Below, in pieces: positions 1,153 to 24,912 of a DNA stretch of 25,357 nucleotides (positions within the stretch are counted from its first letter, which is position 1; each line of letters starts with the position of its first letter). The stretch is taken from the IMG/VR virus record IMGVR_UViG_3300010316_000041, positions 1 through 25,357 of that record; one strand, 5' to 3'. This DNA comes from a virus. Made by a program: the position numbers and the translations under genes. The notes under the pieces were generated by a model that worked only from the letters and a program-made list of their open reading frames with translations, searched no databases and was not told the origin of the DNA.

Positions 1153-1430
1153 TGGAAAAGAACATTCTTATGCCAAAGTACATGAAGGGCAAGAAGCCAG
1201 TCAAGAAGCGTAAACCATCTAAGCCAATTGACGGTATCAACCATCGTCTGCTTAGAGAGCAAGCCTTGGCAAAAGATGTTGTCGCAGTAGAAGATAATTC
1301 AGCACCAACACGCACAGAGCTAGAAACTAAAGCGACTGAGCTTGGCATCAAGTTTGATGGTCGGACAACTGATAAACGGTTGCTAGACAAGATTGAGCAT
1401 ACATTAGGGGCTAATGATGTCGTGGACTAA
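1152..1430 (+). CDS. basic protein with C-terminal HeH/LEM-like helical motif
   Basis: 92 residues. The N-terminal half is basic (MPKYMKGKKPVKKRKPSKP). The C-terminal about 40 residues (TRTELETKATELGIKFDGRT, then TDKRLLDKIEH) match the helix-extension-helix pattern LxxKAxELGIxFDGRTxDxxLxxKI, seen at the ends of many phage structural proteins and resembling SAP/LEM/Rho-N DNA-binding motifs. SD AAGAAGG lies just upstream of the ATG. It overlaps the gp4 homologue by 17 bases. It could bind DNA at the portal or act as an accessory head protein; function is not established. Confidence 0.65.
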   Translation: MEKNILMPKYMKGKKPVKKRKPSKPIDGINHRLLREQALAKDVVAVEDNSAPTRTELETKATELGIKFDGRTTDKRLLDKIEHTLGANDVVD

Positions 1431-1899
1431 AAGACAGTTCGTGGAAGCAGCGTTTGATGAGATTGGTTTAGCATCTTATGTGTTTGACTTAACACCTGAA
1501 CAGCTACAGTCTGCGTTAAGACGCTTAGACACGCTCGTAGCGGCTTGGAATGCTTTAGGCATACGATTGGGTTACCCATTACCATCAAGCCCACAGGATA
1601 GCGATTTAGATGAGCAGACAAATGTTCCTGATTCATCTATCGAGGCACTATATACAAATCTAGCTGTAAAACTTGCACCGAGTTACGGTAAGCAAGTTAT
1701 GATTGAGACTAAGGTCACAGCTAAAGAATCATACAATACGTTGTTGTCGCTTGCGGCTATGCCAATGGAACAACAGTTACCGATGACAATGCCAGCAGGT
1801 GCAGGTAATAAACCGTGGCGTAATTACGACAACCCATTTTTACCACGACCTGTTGACCCATTGTTAGCGGGTCAAGATGGTCAAATAGAATTTAATTAA
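1414..1899 (+). CDS. P22 gp4-like tail accessory factor / head completion protein
   Basis: 161 residues, close to P22 gp4 (166). The helical N-terminus WTKRQFVEAAFDEIGLASYV, then LTPEQLQSALRRLDTLVAAWNALGIRLGY and SSIEALYTNLAVKLAPSYGK, follows the gp4 family (Phage_tail_accessory_gp4). In P22, gp4 binds beneath the portal as the first head-closure ring and holds gp10 and the tailspikes. Two ATGs sit in tandem (1414, 1417); the SD GGGG ending at 1410 has better spacing for the second. Overlap with the preceding gene implies coupling. Confidence 0.85.
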   Translation: MMSWTKRQFVEAAFDEIGLASYVFDLTPEQLQSALRRLDTLVAAWNALGIRLGYPLPSSPQDSDLDEQTNVPDSSIEALYTNLAVKLAPSYGKQVMIETKVTAKESYNTLLSLAAMPMEQQLPMTMPAGAGNKPWRNYDNPFLPRPVDPLLAGQDGQIEFN

Positions 1900-1909
1900 G
1901 GATTTAGAT

Positions 1910-2365
1910 ATGCCAACAATCAATCAACTTGCAGGTGTAAGCCAATTGTCGGGTGGTGATTTACTGCCTATCTATGTGCCTAACAATGGTGATGCTCGTA
2001 AAATATCGCTTACGCAATTGCTACAGTACTTTCAGCAGACATTCGCTGCGCCTACCGTTGCCACTAGCGTTTATACGCCAGCTACAGGGTTTAACATAAC
2101 CGTACCAACACCAACAAGCGAACAGCAATGGATGTTGTTACAACCTGCGAGTACGCTTGCCACAGGCACGATTACCTTACCGTTGAATACGGGTGTTCCA
2201 TCAGGCACACAGATTTTAGTGACAAGTACGCAGACAATCACAGCGTTAACAATTGGTTTGAATGGTTCAAGCGCTGCGTCAGGCGCACCAACAACTCTAT
2301 TAGCGGGTGGATTCTTTACACTACGATTCTACCAAGCCACTAACTCTTGGTATCGTGTCGGTTAA
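1910..2365 (+). CDS. beta-rich structural protein with tail-fibre-type N-terminus
   Basis: 151 residues, SD AAGGAT, start MPTINQLAGVSQLSGGDLLP. The first about 45 residues (INQLxxVSQLxxGDLLPIYV, then ARKISLTQLLQYFQ) are the short adaptor-like module found at the start of many phage tail fibre and appendage proteins. The rest is Thr/Ser/Ala-rich beta sequence (PASTLATGTITLPL, TQTITALTIGLNGS). No enzyme motif. It lies among head-tail connector genes, so a minor virion protein is likely. The same kind of N-terminus recurs in the tail protein at 13836-15179. Confidence 0.6.
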   Translation: MPTINQLAGVSQLSGGDLLPIYVPNNGDARKISLTQLLQYFQQTFAAPTVATSVYTPATGFNITVPTPTSEQQWMLLQPASTLATGTITLPLNTGVPSGTQILVTSTQTITALTIGLNGSSAASGAPTTLLAGGFFTLRFYQATNSWYRVG

Positions 2366-2379
2366 TCAAAGGAAATAAC

Positions 2380-2682
2380 ATGGCTTTTAATACTTCACCA
2401 TTCGCACCAGGCTACGGTCACGGTGCTGTTCTCACAGCTACGGCAACATCTGCTAACGCTGCGATTGACGCTGCATCACAGACACTATGTTTGACCAACT
2501 TAGGTTCAGCCGTTGTGTATATCAAACTTAGCGAAGACTCTACCGATACAGCTAGTACGGCTGATTACCCTATCCCTGGTGGTGCACAAGTTAGCATCAC
2601 TAAGAACCGTAACTACAATCGTATTGCTTACATCTCAGCCGATGGCACGTCTTTGCACGTCTTGCCTGGTGAGGGCTTCTAA
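2380..2682 (+). CDS. small beta-rich virion protein, unknown role
   Basis: 100 residues from ATG 2380, chosen because AAAGGA lies 6-12 bases upstream; an earlier in-frame start at 2347 would overlap the previous gene and has no SD. The sequence (LTATATSANAAIDAASQTLCL, VVYIKLSEDSTDTASTADYPIPGG, GTSLHVLPGEGF) is a predicted beta-sandwich resembling small phage decoration or tail-associated proteins whose pattern is NxGxxxVYIxxxxxxxxAxxxDxPIPGG. No catalytic motif. Stop TAA overlaps the next ATG (2682). Confidence 0.6.
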   Translation: MAFNTSPFAPGYGHGAVLTATATSANAAIDAASQTLCLTNLGSAVVYIKLSEDSTDTASTADYPIPGGAQVSITKNRNYNRIAYISADGTSLHVLPGEGF

Positions 2683-2813
2683 TGTATCCATTAACCAGAA
2701 TGCGGTGTCGGTGTAGGTTCTGGAACGTGAACGGTGGGCCTGTCTTGGGCGCATTGTTACTGCAAGACGGTTCGTTCCTACTTTTAGAAGACGGCAGTTA
2801 CATTTTGCTGTAA
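2682..2813 (+). CDS. 43-residue micro-protein with tandem LLLxDGS repeats
   Basis: Short ORF whose ATG overlaps the previous TAA (TAATG). After a basic, Cys-containing start (MYPLTRMRCRCRFWNVNGGP), residues 26-43 repeat one short motif: LLLQDGSF, LLLEDGSY, ILL. The LLLEDG(S/G) repeat is common in phage and viral structural proteins, where it probably forms stacked beta strands. The next gene follows after 19 bases with its own SD. Coupled overlap and repeated structure favour a real gene. Function unknown. Confidence 0.55.
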   Translation: MYPLTRMRCRCRFWNVNGGPVLGALLLQDGSFLLLEDGSYILL

Positions 2814-2832
2814 CAACTTAAAGGCATTTGGT

Positions 2833-3117
2833 ATGGCAACGAAAGACCCAAGGCTTGCACGTGTGAAGGTTGAAGGCTATAACAAGCCTAAACGTACTCC
2901 CTCACATCCTACTAAATCTCATGTTGTGGTGGCTAAAGATGGTGATCAAATTAAGACCATTCGATTTGGTCAACAGGGTGTTAAAGGCTCACCAAAGACA
3001 GAGGGCGAATCAAGTAAGGACAAAGCTAGACGAGAATCATTCAAAGCTAGACATGCTAAAAATATATCCAAAGGCAAGATGAGTGGGAGCTTTTGGTCGA
3101 ATTTGGTTAAATGGTAG
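2833..3117 (+). CDS. conserved basic phage protein of unknown function
   Basis: 94 residues, SD AAAGG about 8 bases before the ATG. The sequence MATKDPRLARVKVEGYNKPK, then THPxKSHVVVAKDGDQIKTIRFGQQGVKGS and a basic stretch SSKDKARRESFKARHAKNI ending SGSFWSNLVKW, matches a conserved family seen in many phages and large viruses (pattern KxxxVxxKxGDKIKxIRFGQxGVxGS...FKxRHxxNIxKG...YWxxxxxW, which I recall as DUF5872-like). Strongly basic. Immediately upstream of the gp10 homologue. No tested function known to me; a DNA-contacting or head-closure accessory role is inference. Confidence 0.65.
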   Translation: MATKDPRLARVKVEGYNKPKRTPSHPTKSHVVVAKDGDQIKTIRFGQQGVKGSPKTEGESSKDKARRESFKARHAKNISKGKMSGSFWSNLVKW

Positions 3118-3133
3118 TCAAACGGTAACATAA

Positions 3134-4546
3134 ATGCAGATTCCAATTCTAAGTGGCATATTTACAGACAATACGCCAGAGTTGCGTACAAGTTACCCTG
3201 TCAACCTTGTGCCTGTTCCTAAAGAGTCGGGCATTAGCGCAGGGTTCTTGCGACCTGCTGACGGAATTGTAGCCAATGGCACAGGCCCTGGCATTGACCG
3301 TGGTGGCGTAGTATGGGATGGCATCTACTATCGAGTCATGGGCACTAAGTTAGTCTCAATTGATGAGGATGGTGTCGTTACCATACTTGGTGATGTTGGT
3401 GGCACGGAAGACAATCAAGTAACCTTTAATTACAGCTTTGACTTGCTTGGCATTGTGTCAGCACAAAAGCTATTTTATTGGAATCCAGTAGCCTCCACTC
3501 TAGTAGAAGTAACTGACCCTGACTTGGGCATTGTGCTTGATATGGTATGGGTAGATGGTTACTTTATGACTACAGACGGTGCAAACCTAGTGGTGACCGA
3601 GTTAAACGACCCAACACAAGTAAACCCATTAAAGTACGGTAGCTCTGAGGTTGACCCTGACCCTGTAGTCGCATTGATTAAGTTACGCAATGAAGTCTAT
3701 GCGCTTAACAGAAACACAATCGAAGTTTTTGATAACGTGGGTGGGCAGTTCTTTCCATTTGTACGTATTGATGGCGCACAGATTCAAAAGGGTGTAGTCG
3801 GCACACATGCTTGCTGTGAGTTTGTAGCTAGTATTGCGTTTTTAGGTAGCGGTAGCAATGATGCACCTGCTATCTATATCGGTGCTAATGCTACTACGCA
3901 GAAATTAAGCACACAAGAGATTGATGAAGTCTTATTGCAGTTTACCGAAGAGCAATTGGCAACGGTCAAGCTAGAAGCACGTAACGATAAAAGCCATCAA
4001 TACTTATATGTACATTTACCCGATAGAACGCTTGTCTATGACTACGCTTCATCTCAAGTATTAGGCTCACAAGTATGGTTCACATTGACATCGAGCCTCT
4101 CTGGGTTCTCTAAATACCGTGCTAAGAACTTTGTATGGGCTTATGGCAAATGGCTTGTAGGTGACACGCAATCATCAAGCATTGGCTATCTCGTACAAGA
4201 TACTGGTCACAATTGGGGTCAGCAAGTACGGTGGGAATTTGGCACGATGATTGTGTATAACGAAGGCAAGGGTGCAATCTTTAATCGCCTAGAATTAGTA
4301 GCGTTAACGGGTAGTGTTGCCGTAGGGACTAACCCTATGATCAATACTAGCTACTCGGTTGATGGTAAGAACTGGAGTCAAAACCGTAGCATTACGGTTG
4401 GCACGATTGGTAACACACAAAAGCGTTTAGCATGGTTTCAACAAGGTCACATGAGAAATTGGCGCATACAGCGATTCCGTGGCGATAGCGATGCACATGT
4501 ATCCTTTATAAGACTAGAGGCTCAAATCGAGCCATTGGCTTACTAA
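3134..4546 (+). CDS. P22 gp10-like packaged DNA stabilisation protein
   Basis: 470 residues against 472 for P22 gp10. Family patterns visible: start QIPILSGIFTDNTPELRTSYPVNLVPVPKE with GFLRPADGIV, YYRVMGTKLVSI, the GxxVLVWVDGYFMTTDG-type blade, NTIEVFDNVGG, IQKGVVGTHACCEFVASIAFLGSG, and the later LPDRTLVYDYASSQ. gp10 forms the hexameric tail hub below gp4 and closes the channel after packaging. The repeated beta segments fit a propeller-like fold. No good SD precedes the ATG at 3134 (AACGG only), so modest expression or coupling is possible. Its TAA overlaps the next ATG. Confidence 0.88.
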   Translation: MQIPILSGIFTDNTPELRTSYPVNLVPVPKESGISAGFLRPADGIVANGTGPGIDRGGVVWDGIYYRVMGTKLVSIDEDGVVTILGDVGGTEDNQVTFNYSFDLLGIVSAQKLFYWNPVASTLVEVTDPDLGIVLDMVWVDGYFMTTDGANLVVTELNDPTQVNPLKYGSSEVDPDPVVALIKLRNEVYALNRNTIEVFDNVGGQFFPFVRIDGAQIQKGVVGTHACCEFVASIAFLGSGSNDAPAIYIGANATTQKLSTQEIDEVLLQFTEEQLATVKLEARNDKSHQYLYVHLPDRTLVYDYASSQVLGSQVWFTLTSSLSGFSKYRAKNFVWAYGKWLVGDTQSSSIGYLVQDTGHNWGQQVRWEFGTMIVYNEGKGAIFNRLELVALTGSVAVGTNPMINTSYSVDGKNWSQNRSITVGTIGNTQKRLAWFQQGHMRNWRIQRFRGDSDAHVSFIRLEAQIEPLAY

Positions 4547-13835: not shown

Positions 13836-15179
13836 ATGAGTGATAAAAAGATTAGCCAATTAACTGCGTTGCCTAGCGCAGAAGTTGCTAGTGACGATTT
13901 ATTGGTGATTGTTGATTCTTCAGCTGGAGCCAACGGTACAAAAAAGATTCTTGTTTCTGATATGGCAACTGCATTTAACAATTTGCAGATAGGGTCATTT
14001 ACTTGGGACTCGGCAACTTCTACACCTAATTCTGTAAATGGTTTATCGCAAGTGGTAACAAGTATCCACGACATGATGCGTGGGTGCGTGTTGTTAGATA
14101 ACGGAGCGGTTAATTATTACCTTAACCCATTGAATTGGGCAGAGAAAGTAGACGGTACTGCAAGTGACTTAACAGGCGCAGACGGTCAGGTAATGGTTGA
14201 GATTCCTAAGTTTTACTACCGCACAATACGGGTCGGCACGATTACTACGTGGTCTATATCAGCGTTTAATCAGTCTGGCTATGTTCTGCACCCCGCTTTC
14301 ATTAAAGATGGCGTAGAGGTTAACTTTAGATACTACGGTGCTTATGATGCGTGTGTCTACGATGTAAGTGGTGCTACTTATATTTCAGGTACTAACCTAG
14401 ACGATAATTCTGCTAACGTAGACACAACTGCTACCACAGGTGACAAACTAGCCTCGGTTAAAAGTATCTACCCAATGGTAGGACTTACTCGTGCTCAGTT
14501 TAGGACTATTGGGTTTAATCGTGGTGCAGGGTGGAGACAGTTAGACTTTACACTTTGGTCTGCGGTACAAATGCTTTATCTTATTGAGTACCAATCGTTT
14601 TACAGCCAAAACATTTTAGGCGCTGGTAATACAAATGGTGGCTATGGAGCTGCTAGTGCAGTACAAGCAGACAGCCCACACACCATAGCGGGCGCTGGCG
14701 ATTCTATATCAGACGGCTCAACCAATATTACAAGTGGGGCAGGTGTCAATGCCAAGCCTGGCACATCGTTTATGAAGTATCGTGGCATTGAAAACCTTTA
14801 CGGCAATTCAGCATATTTTGCAGATGGCATTAACGTAAACGTTAGCTCTGCTGGCAATGTTTATGTCACAAATAATGCTACCAATTGGGCTGATGACACC
14901 GCAACTAATTACACACTTATTACTTCTGGTTTATCGACTGTAGCGGGTTTTATTAAAGACTTATTACCAACAGACGGTTATTTTTTAAGCAGTACTAATG
15001 TGGGTGGTAGCAGTTCAACTTACATTACTGATTACCATGTTGGTAGTGCCGCTTCAAATCTAGTCGTTTTTGTCGGAGGTAGTGCAAATTATATTGGAGA
15101 AGCGGGGGCTTTTTGTCTGTCTTCTTATGTTGGTGCGTCAACTGCTTTTCGTTCTATTGGCGGTAGGCTCGCCTTTTAA
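13836..15179 (+). CDS. tail protein with C-type-lectin (FGE-like) variable C-terminus, DGR-target type
   Basis: 447 residues, SD AAGGAA. Residues 1-50 are a tail-appendage module (KKISQLTALPSAEVASDDLL, TKKILVSDMATAF). Residues 120-447 match the formylglycine-generating-enzyme/C-type-lectin fold used by phage adhesins: VEIPKFYYRT, HPAFIKDGVEV, a RAQFRTIGFNRGAGW segment, MKYRGIENLYGNSAYFADGI, and the end GEAGAFCLSS...RSIGGRLAF. That terminus corresponds to the variable region of diversity-generating retroelement targets (NIGGRL-type end). 18 of 26 codons at residues 416-441 end in T, as expected if NNT codons arose from AAT template codons. No reverse transcriptase or template repeat lies in the window. 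Likely a second receptor-binding protein. Confidence 0.72.
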   Translation: MSDKKISQLTALPSAEVASDDLLVIVDSSAGANGTKKILVSDMATAFNNLQIGSFTWDSATSTPNSVNGLSQVVTSIHDMMRGCVLLDNGAVNYYLNPLNWAEKVDGTASDLTGADGQVMVEIPKFYYRTIRVGTITTWSISAFNQSGYVLHPAFIKDGVEVNFRYYGAYDACVYDVSGATYISGTNLDDNSANVDTTATTGDKLASVKSIYPMVGLTRAQFRTIGFNRGAGWRQLDFTLWSAVQMLYLIEYQSFYSQNILGAGNTNGGYGAASAVQADSPHTIAGAGDSISDGSTNITSGAGVNAKPGTSFMKYRGIENLYGNSAYFADGINVNVSSAGNVYVTNNATNWADDTATNYTLITSGLSTVAGFIKDLLPTDGYFLSSTNVGGSSSTYITDYHVGSAASNLVVFVGGSANYIGEAGAFCLSSYVGASTAFRSIGGRLAF

Positions 15180-15190
15180 GGGAATAAATT

Positions 15191-15496
15191 ATGAAAACAT
15201 ATTCAACACAAGAGCCAACCGTATACGATGCGTCTGGCAATGAACTTAGAATCCGATGGGATATACAGGAAGTTGTAACCGATGAACTAACTCAATGGTC
15301 AGCAAACGAAGCTATCTGCTCTGTCTTTTGTAATCGCTCACAGATTATCGAAGCTATTATCGGTTCTGTCTACGACACAGGTGCAGAGATTGCGCTTATC
15401 AATAACCAAGCAGATAAACCTGAAGCATACGCTGAGTACCAAGCATTTAGAGTGTTGGCTAAAGAAATTGCTGATAACTGGTTAGCTAGTAAATAA
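15191..15496 (+). CDS. small protein paired with the lectin-type tail gene
   Basis: 101 residues, SD AGGGA, 11 bases after the tail gene. Start KTYSTQEPTVYDASGNELRIRWD, then ANEAICSVFCNRSQIIEAII and a helical C-terminus AYAEYQAFRVLAKEIADNWLA. No catalytic or membrane motif. Genes of this size directly after lectin-type or fibre genes are often assembly or attachment partners; I cannot confirm that here. It does not resemble the DGR accessory protein Avd, which is a four-helix bundle. Confidence 0.55.
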   Translation: MKTYSTQEPTVYDASGNELRIRWDIQEVVTDELTQWSANEAICSVFCNRSQIIEAIIGSVYDTGAEIALINNQADKPEAYAEYQAFRVLAKEIADNWLASK

Positions 15497-15737: not shown

Positions 15738-16010
15738 ATGGAAGAACAGCGACTGGCAAGAATCGAACAAAAACTTGATAAACTTTCAGAAGCTGTGGTT
15801 TCCTTGGCTCGTATGGAGGAACGTATCATTACTCTGTTTAACCGCATGGACACCTACGATGCGAGACAGCTAAACATGGAAGACCGTGTGGCTGAAATTG
15901 AACGAATAAGCGTTGGTCGTGGTGCAATATTTAAGTTGGTCGATAAACTCATTTGGATAGTCGTTGGCTTGTCCGCTGCGGTGTTAATCGAAAGTTTTAT
16001 AAAGCGTTAA
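15738..16010 (+). CDS. coiled-coil protein with one C-terminal transmembrane helix
   Basis: 90 residues. Residues 1-58 form a heptad coiled coil (EEQRLARIEQKLDKLSEAVV, RMEERIITLFNRMD, NMEDRVAEIERI), followed by a basic spacer and a hydrophobic anchor (about 67-86, KLIWIVVGLSAAVLIESFIK). The shape is like XhlA-type or tail-anchored lysis-associated proteins. Encoded between a small membrane protein and the phosphoesterase. Function is not demonstrated; membrane anchoring is clear from sequence. Confidence 0.6.
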   Translation: MEEQRLARIEQKLDKLSEAVVSLARMEERIITLFNRMDTYDARQLNMEDRVAEIERISVGRGAIFKLVDKLIWIVVGLSAAVLIESFIKR

Positions 16011-20644: not shown

Positions 20645-20844
20645 GTCGATTCCTTAAGTGAGTAAACTGCGATATTTTTGCCATTATCTAAGCGTTGCAT
20701 ACGTTTTTCTATCTTGTGTCCAGCTTGTTTTAACCTGTAGATTCTTGCTGCTAAACGAAAACAATTGAATTTTTTTAAAGCATCTAATGCTGTCAATTCA
20801 CCGTTTTGTAGTGCTTCAAGGGTCATTTCTTCTTGTGTCATCAT
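20641..20844 (-). CDS. small helix-turn-helix protein (HTH_39-like)
   Basis: 67 residues, ATGA-coupled both to the exonuclease upstream and to SSB downstream. GELTALDALKKFNCFRLAAR, IYRLKQAGHKIEKRMQRL, NGKNIAVYSLKE match a short winged-helix domain (GxxTxxxALxxxGCxRLAARIxxLRxAGxxIxxxxxxxxGKxxAxYxL) common beside phage SSB and recombination genes. Probably binds DNA; regulation of the operon is a reasonable but unproved idea. Confidence 0.7.
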   Translation of the reverse strand: MMTQEEMTLEALQNGELTALDALKKFNCFRLAARIYRLKQAGHKIEKRMQRLDNGKNIAVYSLKEST

Positions 20845-21455
20845 TGCACCTTTTTATAAAGTTCAATAATCTTTGCATCGACCTCTGCTAAAAACTTAAT
20901 AGCTTCAGCCTCTATTTTTGCAACCATTTCGTCATCACGCTCTATACGCACTACAAGCAGTTTTAATCCATCGGGTAACCTTGGGTCAAAGCTAACAAAG
21001 TCACACCACCTGCGACCCGTTACGCTCATCTGAGACATCATCTGTGTAAGGTACTTAGTTGGCGGCTTGCGTGTTTCTATGTACTCTAGGTGTGTAGACG
21101 AATTTGGGCATTTTATCTCTATCAATCCTTCGTCACCTACCAAACCATCAGGGCTACACCCGAAGTTTGCAATAGTAGGGTGGTCAACAAATGGTACTTG
21201 GTCAACAAAGTTATAGCTAAAAACCTCGTATGTGGCTCTAGCTTGTGGCTCTGTTTCGATACCCCAATTCATAGCAGAGTTACTGTAAGAATCGGTCTTG
21301 TTACCTGTTAAACGTTCGGCAATCAGGTCAGCACGTAGGTTCTTGCGTGACATAGACTCACCCGTCTTAACTGTTGCAAGCATATCGGCAACACGTGAGG
21401 CTGTCAGCTTGCCTATTCTGAGCGCCTGCCATTCAGGTGTACCTTGTTCAATCAT
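20841..21455 (-). CDS. YqaJ / lambda-Exo type recombination exonuclease
   Basis: 204 residues. N-terminus QGTPEWQALRIGKLTASRVA is the classic YqaJ/lambda-Exo entry; WGIETEPQARATYE holds the conserved Glu (E68); GCSPDGLVGDEGLIEIKCPN gives D103, E113 and K115, the PD-(D/E)XK metal site (compare D119, E129, K131 in lambda Exo). It resects dsDNA 5' to 3' to give 3' tails for the ERF annealase encoded just before it (8-base overlap). Confidence 0.9.
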   Translation of the reverse strand: MIEQGTPEWQALRIGKLTASRVADMLATVKTGESMSRKNLRADLIAERLTGNKTDSYSNSAMNWGIETEPQARATYEVFSYNFVDQVPFVDHPTIANFGCSPDGLVGDEGLIEIKCPNSSTHLEYIETRKPPTKYLTQMMSQMSVTGRRWCDFVSFDPRLPDGLKLLVVRIERDDEMVAKIEAEAIKFLAEVDAKIIELYKKVQ

Positions 21456-22002
21456 TTTTCACCTCTAGCAGTTCAGCTTTGCGTACATCTTTAGCTTTGC
21501 TGATTTGTGAAAGTAAGGCTTTATTGTCACCAAACAGGGAATAAGAGGCTGTGTAATGGGCTTTTAGTTCGTCTAGTGTGTTACTACCCTGTATAGATTT
21601 AATCGCAATAGAGGCGTCTTGTGGTGCTTTACGTGAACCTGCATTGCCGTCATCATCTTCGGGTGCAATGCCGCAAGCCGCCATCAAGCTGTAGCGTCTA
21701 GCATAAGTTAATGCAGAGCCAAAACCTTGCGGGTCTTGTTTGCTTGCAGGGACAAATAACTTGCCTGATGATAATGTTTCACCTGATTCATGGATAAACA
21801 TTGTTTCAACAGTCACGCCACCTTGCGATTCGTGGTTAAGTTGCATCAACGCTATACCGTGGTTGTTAAGAGCGTCTATGACGGCTTCTACGCAAGCGGC
21901 AAGGTCAGCATATTTAGACTTGAAGTGTGGGTTAGTTGCAGACTTTAATGCAGGGTTAAATTCTTTTTGTGCCTGTACAAAGGCGGTGCATATTTGTTTC
22001 AT
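21448..22002 (-). CDS. erf: ERF-family single-strand annealing protein
   Basis: 184 residues from ATG 22002; a longer version to 22047 would overlap the preceding gene. Family motifs: AFVQAQKEFNPALKSATNPH, FKSKYADLAACVEAV, NHGIALMQLNHES, GSALTYARRYSLMAACGIAP and EDDDGNAG. P22 Erf is the prototype; these form rings on ssDNA and pair complementary strands for recombination and genome circularisation. C-terminus (DELKAHYTASYSLF...SKAKDVRKAELLEV) is a variable helical region. Forms an exonuclease/annealase pair with the next gene. Confidence 0.88.
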   Translation of the reverse strand: MKQICTAFVQAQKEFNPALKSATNPHFKSKYADLAACVEAVIDALNNHGIALMQLNHESQGGVTVETMFIHESGETLSSGKLFVPASKQDPQGFGSALTYARRYSLMAACGIAPEDDDGNAGSRKAPQDASIAIKSIQGSNTLDELKAHYTASYSLFGDNKALLSQISKAKDVRKAELLEVKND

Positions 22003-22009
22003 AATAGTC

Positions 22010-22198
22010 TCAGATAAAGTTAGCGGTAAGTAAGGTAAGAAAAGCAATAAAAGCTATGACATATGCAACGGGCGGTATACGGTTAGCAACTGCATGTTCA
22101 CGAGCGTATTCGCCACCGATGCTTTCACGCAATGTGCGACCTGTAAAGTTTGGGTGGCTGAGGTCGGCAAAGTAACCGTAGTTGTGGTCGTTTTTCAT
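22010..22198 (-). CDS. small protein with C-terminal transmembrane helix
   Basis: 62 residues with a clear AAGGAG site. N-terminal half is polar (NDHNYGYFADLSHPNFTGRT, LRESIGGEYAREHAV), then PVAYVIAFIAFLTLLTANFI is a tail-anchor membrane helix. The ERF start lies 8 bases downstream. No family recognised. It is the first gene after the 70-base gap containing the repeated box at 22249-22266, so it may lead a separate transcript. Confidence 0.5.
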   Translation of the reverse strand: MKNDHNYGYFADLSHPNFTGRTLRESIGGEYAREHAVANRIPPVAYVIAFIAFLTLLTANFI

Positions 22199-22601: not shown

Positions 22602-23477
22602 TTAAACTTTTTTAAACACCAAAACATTTTGATGAATTTTTACTAGCTTTTCAGTCTTCATGTTGCCGTTTGCTCTCATGCTTGCACTTGCTACGGGGTT
22701 TAATAATATTGCCTCGTTATAAAACTTCATGCCACACTTTTCAAAGGCTCGAATTGTGTCAGGCACAAATCCGATGTAATAGCCGTTTTTATCCCTAACT
22801 TCACCAACCACAAAGCAAACATACCCACCTTTTTTTAGTAGTTTGCAACTTTTGCCAATGATGCTTTCATACAAAGATAAAAATTCGGAATACGGTTTAT
22901 TGCTTATATCGCCATCTAAATCGCTATATACCTCTAAGTCTGCATAAGGTGGGCAACTAAAAACCAAATCAAAGTCATCATTCCATTTACTATCTAGTAA
23001 TTCGTTGCTATCACCAACATACCAATTTGGCTGATTATTAACGTCTAAAATGTCTAAACCTTGCTCACGATTACTATCTATTTGTTCTTGACGTATATCA
23101 ATACCCGTGTACTTAAATCCCAAATAATTAGCGACAATTCCACGAACGCTACCACCTGCAAACGGGTCAAGAATTTTGCCGTTTTCAGGGCAAAACCATC
23201 GGTAAATAATTTCACATAAGGCAGGGTCAAAAACACTTACATAATTATCTTTATTGTCATAATTTATGTTTTTTGAAATATCTCTGTACAAATCTGTACC
23301 TGAATTAATTGCTGTTGCCGACCTGCCAATTTCGCTTTTTAGACCTCTGCTAACCCAAATGCGTTTTCTTTGCTGCCAACTTGCAGTTTTTGTATCTAAT
23401 ACAGAAAATGGAGGTTCAATAAATTTATCCCTTAATAGTTCATCAACAATAATTTCATCACCAAATAAGTCTTTCAT
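22602..23477 (-). CDS. DNA methyltransferase (N6-adenine / N4-cytosine type)
   Basis: 291 residues. SAM motif I DPFAGGS (104-110), motif II GIDIR (125-129), motif III GDS (155-157), and catalytic motif IV SCPPY (174-178). The order I before IV shows it is not the usual beta order. N-terminus MKDLFGDEIIVDELLRDKFI and PPFSVLDTKTASWQQRKRIW belong to a well-known phage methyltransferase family. The target base is likely adenine or cytosine amino group; the site is unknown. It has no paired restriction enzyme here, so protection of phage DNA is the likely job. ATGA-coupled to the Arc-like gene, with AAGGAG as its SD. Confidence 0.85.
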   Translation of the reverse strand: MKDLFGDEIIVDELLRDKFIEPPFSVLDTKTASWQQRKRIWVSRGLKSEIGRSATAINSGTDLYRDISKNINYDNKDNYVSVFDPALCEIIYRWFCPENGKILDPFAGGSVRGIVANYLGFKYTGIDIRQEQIDSNREQGLDILDVNNQPNWYVGDSNELLDSKWNDDFDLVFSCPPYADLEVYSDLDGDISNKPYSEFLSLYESIIGKSCKLLKKGGYVCFVVGEVRDKNGYYIGFVPDTIRAFEKCGMKFYNEAILLNPVASASMRANGNMKTEKLVKIHQNVLVFKKV

Positions 23478-24300: not shown

Positions 24301-24912
24301 TTAAAATAATAGTTTTTGAATTGGAACACTTTTACCTGCATCGTAATTTTTTGTATCCCCTTTTGGGTAAGGAAAAATTTCATAATTTAATTCTTTAGTC
24401 AAATTTAACTTTTCCTTTTTGCTACCAGTAATAAAAATATACCTATGTTTTGCACTTCTAAATGAACGATTTTGACTATCACCTTTGTTGTGTCTTGAGT
24501 GTTTGCCATCATCACTAGCCATATCTGTACGCTCTTTTGTCGTACCAGTAAATAAAAAATTTGTAGCTTGATAAACATAGCCTACGTGGTCTTGTGCTGT
24601 ATCTGCATAACTGACTATAATTTTTGGTTTAGGTAACATTTGTAAACTTCTACCAACTAATATTGAAGCACTATTTTTAGTAGTAGTTTCAATACACAAG
24701 CGGTTTAATTCAAGGACTTTATGTTTGTGCCCAATACCACATACACCCATGCACAAACTTGGCGATGCTGGCATACCGTAAGTACAAACACCAACCAATT
24801 CATTGTTTTCATATAAACCAAATGCGTAGCTTATGCTTGGCATTCTTTTTGCATAATGTTTAAGTAATATCCAAGGTTTAGCTTCAAATGATTTAATTGG
24901 TAAAACTTTCAT
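24301..24912 (-). CDS. Mom-family adenine modification protein
   Basis: 203 residues. Pattern KHYAKRMPSISYAFGLYENN, LVGVCTYGMPASPSLC, VLELNRLCIE, KNSASILVGRSLQMLPKPKI, IVSYADTAQDHVGYVYQATN, FLFTGTTKERTD and a C-terminal HRYIFITGSKK matches the Mu Mom family, a GNAT-fold group converting adenine to the N6-acetamido (methylcarbamoyl) form. It would make phage DNA resistant to many restriction enzymes. No Com-type translational activator is seen. The ATG has no strong SD, unlike its neighbours, and a GC-rich hairpin lies 19-32 bases upstream. Family call is by pattern memory. Confidence 0.75.
   Translation of the reverse strand: MKVLPIKSFEAKPWILLKHYAKRMPSISYAFGLYENNELVGVCTYGMPASPSLCMGVCGIGHKHKVLELNRLCIETTTKNSASILVGRSLQMLPKPKIIVSYADTAQDHVGYVYQATNFLFTGTTKERTDMASDDGKHSRHNKGDSQNRSFRSAKHRYIFITGSKKEKLNLTKELNYEIFPYPKGDTKNYDAGKSVPIQKLLF

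Follow-up and report, generated by a model that had tools for sequence, protein, structure and literature searches.

The Bordetella phage BPP-1 has an active template repeat (TR) and an active reverse transcriptase (RT). Its Mtd (PDB 1yu0-1yu4) is a receptor-binding protein of the C-type lectin type diversified by this diversity-generating retroelement (DGR). A C-type lectin fold is likewise seen in TaqVP, the DGR variable protein of Thermus aquaticus (PDB 5vf4; PMC6328139). In crAss-like phages (crAssphage LMMB, AlphacrAssvirinae genus I) the elements of the DGR follow the order target-VR-TR-RT, where VR is the variable region, with no avd gene (PMC7290462). Incomplete cassettes with orphan VRs have already been reported in this group: among about 90 genomes, a VR was found in 80 and a TR in only 30 (PMC7290462). 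An orphan VR that persists after loss of its cassette is, then, a locus of a known kind. To this we add further phages whose loci range from intact through eroding to empty, a tree that cannot be explained without repeated changes of state, and leads on the exchange of variants between DGR-bearing and cassette-less phages.

The stretch analysed here, hereafter the window, is the whole of the linear IMG/VR record IMGVR_UViG_3300010316_000041 (25,357 bp). Because it starts inside the gene of the major head protein (phrog_283), it represents an incomplete genome. Head, connector, internal and tail genes succeed one another, and recombination and DNA-modification genes then follow on the minus strand. 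This small phage genome combines a Mom-family DNA-modification protein (24301-24912, minus strand) with a DNA methyltransferase (22602-23477, minus strand). The tail gene at its centre (Table 1) is, in the reading that we prefer with a probability of about 0.82, a former DGR target that has lost both TR and RT and whose VR is frozen. By contrast with BPP-1, its contig holds neither TR nor RT.

The tail protein and its DGR-bearing relatives

The tail protein matches the phrog_5302 profile over residues 77-447 (E 1.7e-73) and ends in ...GEAGAFCLSSYVGASTAFRSIGGRLAF, a C-terminus that the first-pass annotation, made from the letters alone, had read correctly. Its eight nearest homologues share 56-72% identity with it, the closest being 72% identical; no near-identical relative of the gene was found in a search for one. 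Several of the eight are targets of intact DGRs, and three have an RT directly behind the target, which makes the window's protein a homologue of the targets of complete DGRs. An AlphaFold model (pLDDT 84) has TaqVP (5vf4) as its best Foldseek match (E 1.6e-9, TM 0.41-0.49), and a profile search independently found the same structure (E 4.9e-6). TaqVP lies outside the tail-protein family of the window, with about 15% identity; Mtd of BPP-1 comes up weakly in the fold search, at ranks 4-8 (E 0.03-0.3). The model predicts a C-type lectin fold and places the VR at its C-terminal end, as befits a DGR target, and what is known of the family suggests a role in receptor binding. The tail-collar target of crAss-like phages was recovered by tblastn with the window's protein, and is a distant homologue with only about 24-29% identity.

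Table 1. Features of the tail locus in the window.
Feature	Position	Strand	Basis or remark
DGR-target tail protein, 447 aa, phrog_5302	13836..15179	+	Profile, homology, AlphaFold model/Foldseek
Putative relic variable region, codons 408-445	15057..15170	+	Codon-by-codon alignment with VRs and TRs of relatives
Cassette-free junction, 11 nt	15180..15190	+	DGR-bearing relatives have TR and RT here, about 1.1-1.3 kb
Gene of a 101-aa protein	15191..15496	+	Homologue behind RT in DGR-bearing relatives; directly behind target here

Related records that bear an RT number 61, and in every one of them 116-638 nt separate the target from the start of the RT downstream. Their order is target, TR, RT and a small gene; the TR was located between target and RT in L005, L007 and L008 (related records carry L numbers). 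The RTs display IGNYTSQ and YCDD motifs, and NCBIfam and PADLOC gave general RT matches only. VR and TR differ almost exclusively at adenines of the TR: the VR/TR pairs of 41 RT-bearing loci show 41 non-A mismatches in 4,791 aligned nucleotides. Two of the records (L025:2846-6048 and L045:3608-6092) have two tandem target genes ahead of a single RT. A third record has a DGR that is complete but for its target (L005:5100-5260): the gene is cut short, its VR lacks the 3' end and passes directly into the TR, and this DGR may be disabled.

The variable region

The first-pass annotation had based its case for a DGR in part on codons ending in T, of which it correctly counted 18 among the 26 codons from 416 to 441. 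As evidence this does not hold. With 42.5% of the tail gene's codons ending in T, a binomial test gives p 0.005 for that segment, and after scanning the excess is not significant (P about 0.48). T-richness alone is weak because 48% of codon-shuffled genes contain an equally T-rich window of 26 codons somewhere. Furthermore, only 9 of the 18 codons fall in columns that read AAY in the TRs of relatives. The evidence that counts for a DGR origin is not T-richness, it is the comparison with relatives.

In that comparison 11 codon columns are AAT or AAC in the relatives' TRs. The window reads AAT, AGT, AAT, TAT, GAA, TCT, TAT, GTT, ACT, TTT and TCT at these columns, hence NNT in 10 of 11 (p=0.0013 against the gene's own codon usage). 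The window has the same residue as any given relative in 1-4 of the 11 AAY columns, as against 13-22 of the 27 other VR columns. Substitutions are thus concentrated at template AAY codons, with the third base kept, as a DGR leaves them. At C427, R444 and L445 the window has the VR form, where TRs mostly have A and VRs are near-constant. There is an exception: codon 422 is GAA in an AAY column, next to an unusual I420/G421, which fits either drift or a different TR. The first-pass annotation had held that its proposal would fall if RT and TR were absent and the variable sites were conserved, or changed synonymously, among relatives; the former is the case (see below), but the sites are hypervariable.

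The comparison also bears on the possibility that no DGR ever acted on this protein, an ordinary tail protein with a C-type lectin domain whose likeness to DGR targets would be due to the fold. The ordinary frequency of T-ending codons, across all windows of the gene, is what one would then expect. High identity to DGR targets, the gene order in common with them, the nesting of the window among RT-bearing targets and the footprint at AAY columns make such an origin highly improbable.

The missing cassette and its decay in relatives

No RT was found in the whole contig with PF00078 and a DGR-RT profile. The best A-tolerant match of the VR on either strand scores 14, just as shuffled VRs do (14-15), while the same scan recovers the TRs of L003 (54) and L026 (96); an all-against-all scan of the window yielded no TR either, and a pattern search through other IMG/VR records brought up neither its TR nor its VR. 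Hence the window contains neither a DGR-type RT nor a repeat near-identical to the VR except at adenines, and what had been said of the visible gaps between its genes extends to all 25,357 bp. The small gene starts 11 nt past the target stop. Its product gives a 176-bit match, with a profile of five sequences that include the window's own, to the genes found behind the RT or its remains in L003, L005, L006 and L007. Judging from this alignment of gene orders, the cassette is missing at exactly the site where relatives have TR and RT.

Could the DGR still be active, with RT and TR in the missing part of the genome? The contig is partial, beginning as it does inside a head protein gene, and the NNT pattern has been kept in 10 of 11 AAY columns. 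However, the close spacing of target and RT holds in 61 of 61 RT-bearing relatives, and 26 related records without RT or with RT remnants, up to 90 kb long, contain no intact RT anywhere. We regard a distant cassette as very unlikely. The wider sampling also comprised 25 records that lack an RT although their downstream sequence extends for 1 kb or more, and three with RT fragments; a search for an RT elsewhere in 27 RT-less records retrieved only the remnants of L006 and L026, and a scan of 13 longer RT-less records disclosed no distal TR. The first-pass annotation had left two options, an RT elsewhere or a decayed DGR. Its assignment of the gene to DGR targets stands; as to the options, no RT-bearing relative among the 61 has its RT farther than about 640 nt from the target, which disfavours the first, while the second is favoured by the empty orthologous site, with neither TR nor RT, and by cassette remnants in six relatives.

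A tree built on the target without its VR has RT-bearing and RT-less rows interleaved, with 15 changes of state, at least 12 of them on firm branches. Six RT-bearing targets share with the window a clade of 11 rows (SH-aLRT 99). The direction of change, which the tree alone cannot tell, is that of loss, because relatives retain remnants of TR and RT. Six loci keep such fragments: 71 nt of TR and the last RT codons in L003, the whole TR and the RT C-terminus in L006, the TR and 36 RT residues in L026, a degraded TR in both L048 and L078, and 53 RT residues in L215. In VR/TR pairs without an RT, non-A mismatches are more frequent than in the RT-bearing loci (15 in 488 nt against 41 in 4,791; Mann-Whitney p=0.04, with only five loci), as expected once homing stops. 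The youngest case of loss is RT-less L067, which shows no difference in 879 nt from RT-bearing L070 outside the VR and 16 inside it, all at codon positions 1 or 2, with a 1.1-kb deletion at a 7-nt microhomology. L067 was set aside as a perfect proof of deletion: some 370 nt separate the junction from the contig end, divergence beyond it is 12%, and the contig may be chimeric. Loss of the cassette has occurred repeatedly among these phages. Compared with the crAss-like case, the losses can here be followed along a tree, remnant stages are at hand, and one RT-bearing and one RT-less record form a near-identical pair.

Under the preferred reading, an ancestor would have had the order target, TR, RT and small gene, and TR and RT would later have been deleted between the target stop and the next gene. 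Alternatively, the tail module may have been acquired from a lineage already devoid of the cassette. The last VR would now be inherited as ordinary sequence, fixing the receptor-binding specificity. Counting against this scenario, the window has no remnant of TR or RT, so that its loss, presumably by deletion in its own lineage, is read from relatives. The freezing of the VR in this phage is likewise presumed, the closest target being only 72% identical.

Possible exchange of variants between phages

A VR without a cassette might still be renewed from outside, by recombination of the target with DGR-bearing relatives or by retrohoming in trans. The VRs of RT-less L002 and L004, which have their cassette-free junction in common, fit the TR of RT-bearing L018 with three and five non-A mismatches; apart from L018 and its near-twin L015, no record offers a TR with fewer than 12. 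Just upstream of the VR, L002:10633-11133 is 98-100% identical to L018:5600-6100. The easy reading is recombination with a DGR-bearing phage. We do not count this pair as a clean example of trans diversification, since the gene is a mosaic. RT-less L027 and L029 have an identical cassette-free junction (targets ending at L027:6104 and L029:5789) and flanks about 5-7% apart, yet 9 of their 10 VR replacements lie at AAY columns; the known TR nearest to their VRs is that of L026, itself without intact RT. This may reflect import, retrohoming in trans or a junction formed by two deletions at one site. Both pairs lend some credit to renewal from outside in the window as well. By contrast, none of the relatives' TRs compared fits the window's VR (the best has 20 non-A mismatches), its target has no near relative, and VRs are identical within the cassette-less groups L028/L029/L030 and L053/L054/L055. 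For the window, then, we consider such renewal improbable, and retain a frozen VR as the preferred reading.

The lead from these cases is that some cassette-less phages carry VRs made from the TRs of other phages, probably obtained through recombination. Going further, DGR-bearing phages may form a shared source of variants, from which cassette-less targets keep gaining VRs randomised at A sites through recombination or retrohoming in trans; we put this forward tentatively, as a rather unlikely generalisation; the cases that might exemplify it are L002/L004 with the TR of L018, and L027 compared with L029.

The tail slot itself is exchanged between phages. L131 shares the window's downstream genes (about 72% nucleotide identity from window position 15738 on), and its corresponding slot is occupied by another target, which comes with a complete DGR of its own (VR 1405-1519, TR 1942-2056, RT ORF 1304-3190; VR/TR mismatches 19 A and 1 non-A). 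The gene of a neighbouring metallophosphoesterase has relatives of up to 98% identity, but with other tail genes, and relatives chosen by it are therefore no population sample of the target. On the minus strand of the window (20841-22047) a YqaJ/RecE-like exonuclease adjoins an ERF annealing protein; these two phage recombination partners might favour module swapping of the kind observed.

The imprint of a DGR can outlast its machinery in a phage receptor-binding protein, and loss of that machinery is recurrent across one tail-protein family. Surveys of DGRs that start from the RT overlook such cassette-less targets. With intact, eroding and cassette-free loci side by side, one can now ask at what point targeted mutation ceases to benefit a phage, and the same collection of loci allows one to ask whether cassette-less phages borrow variants from those that still bear a DGR.
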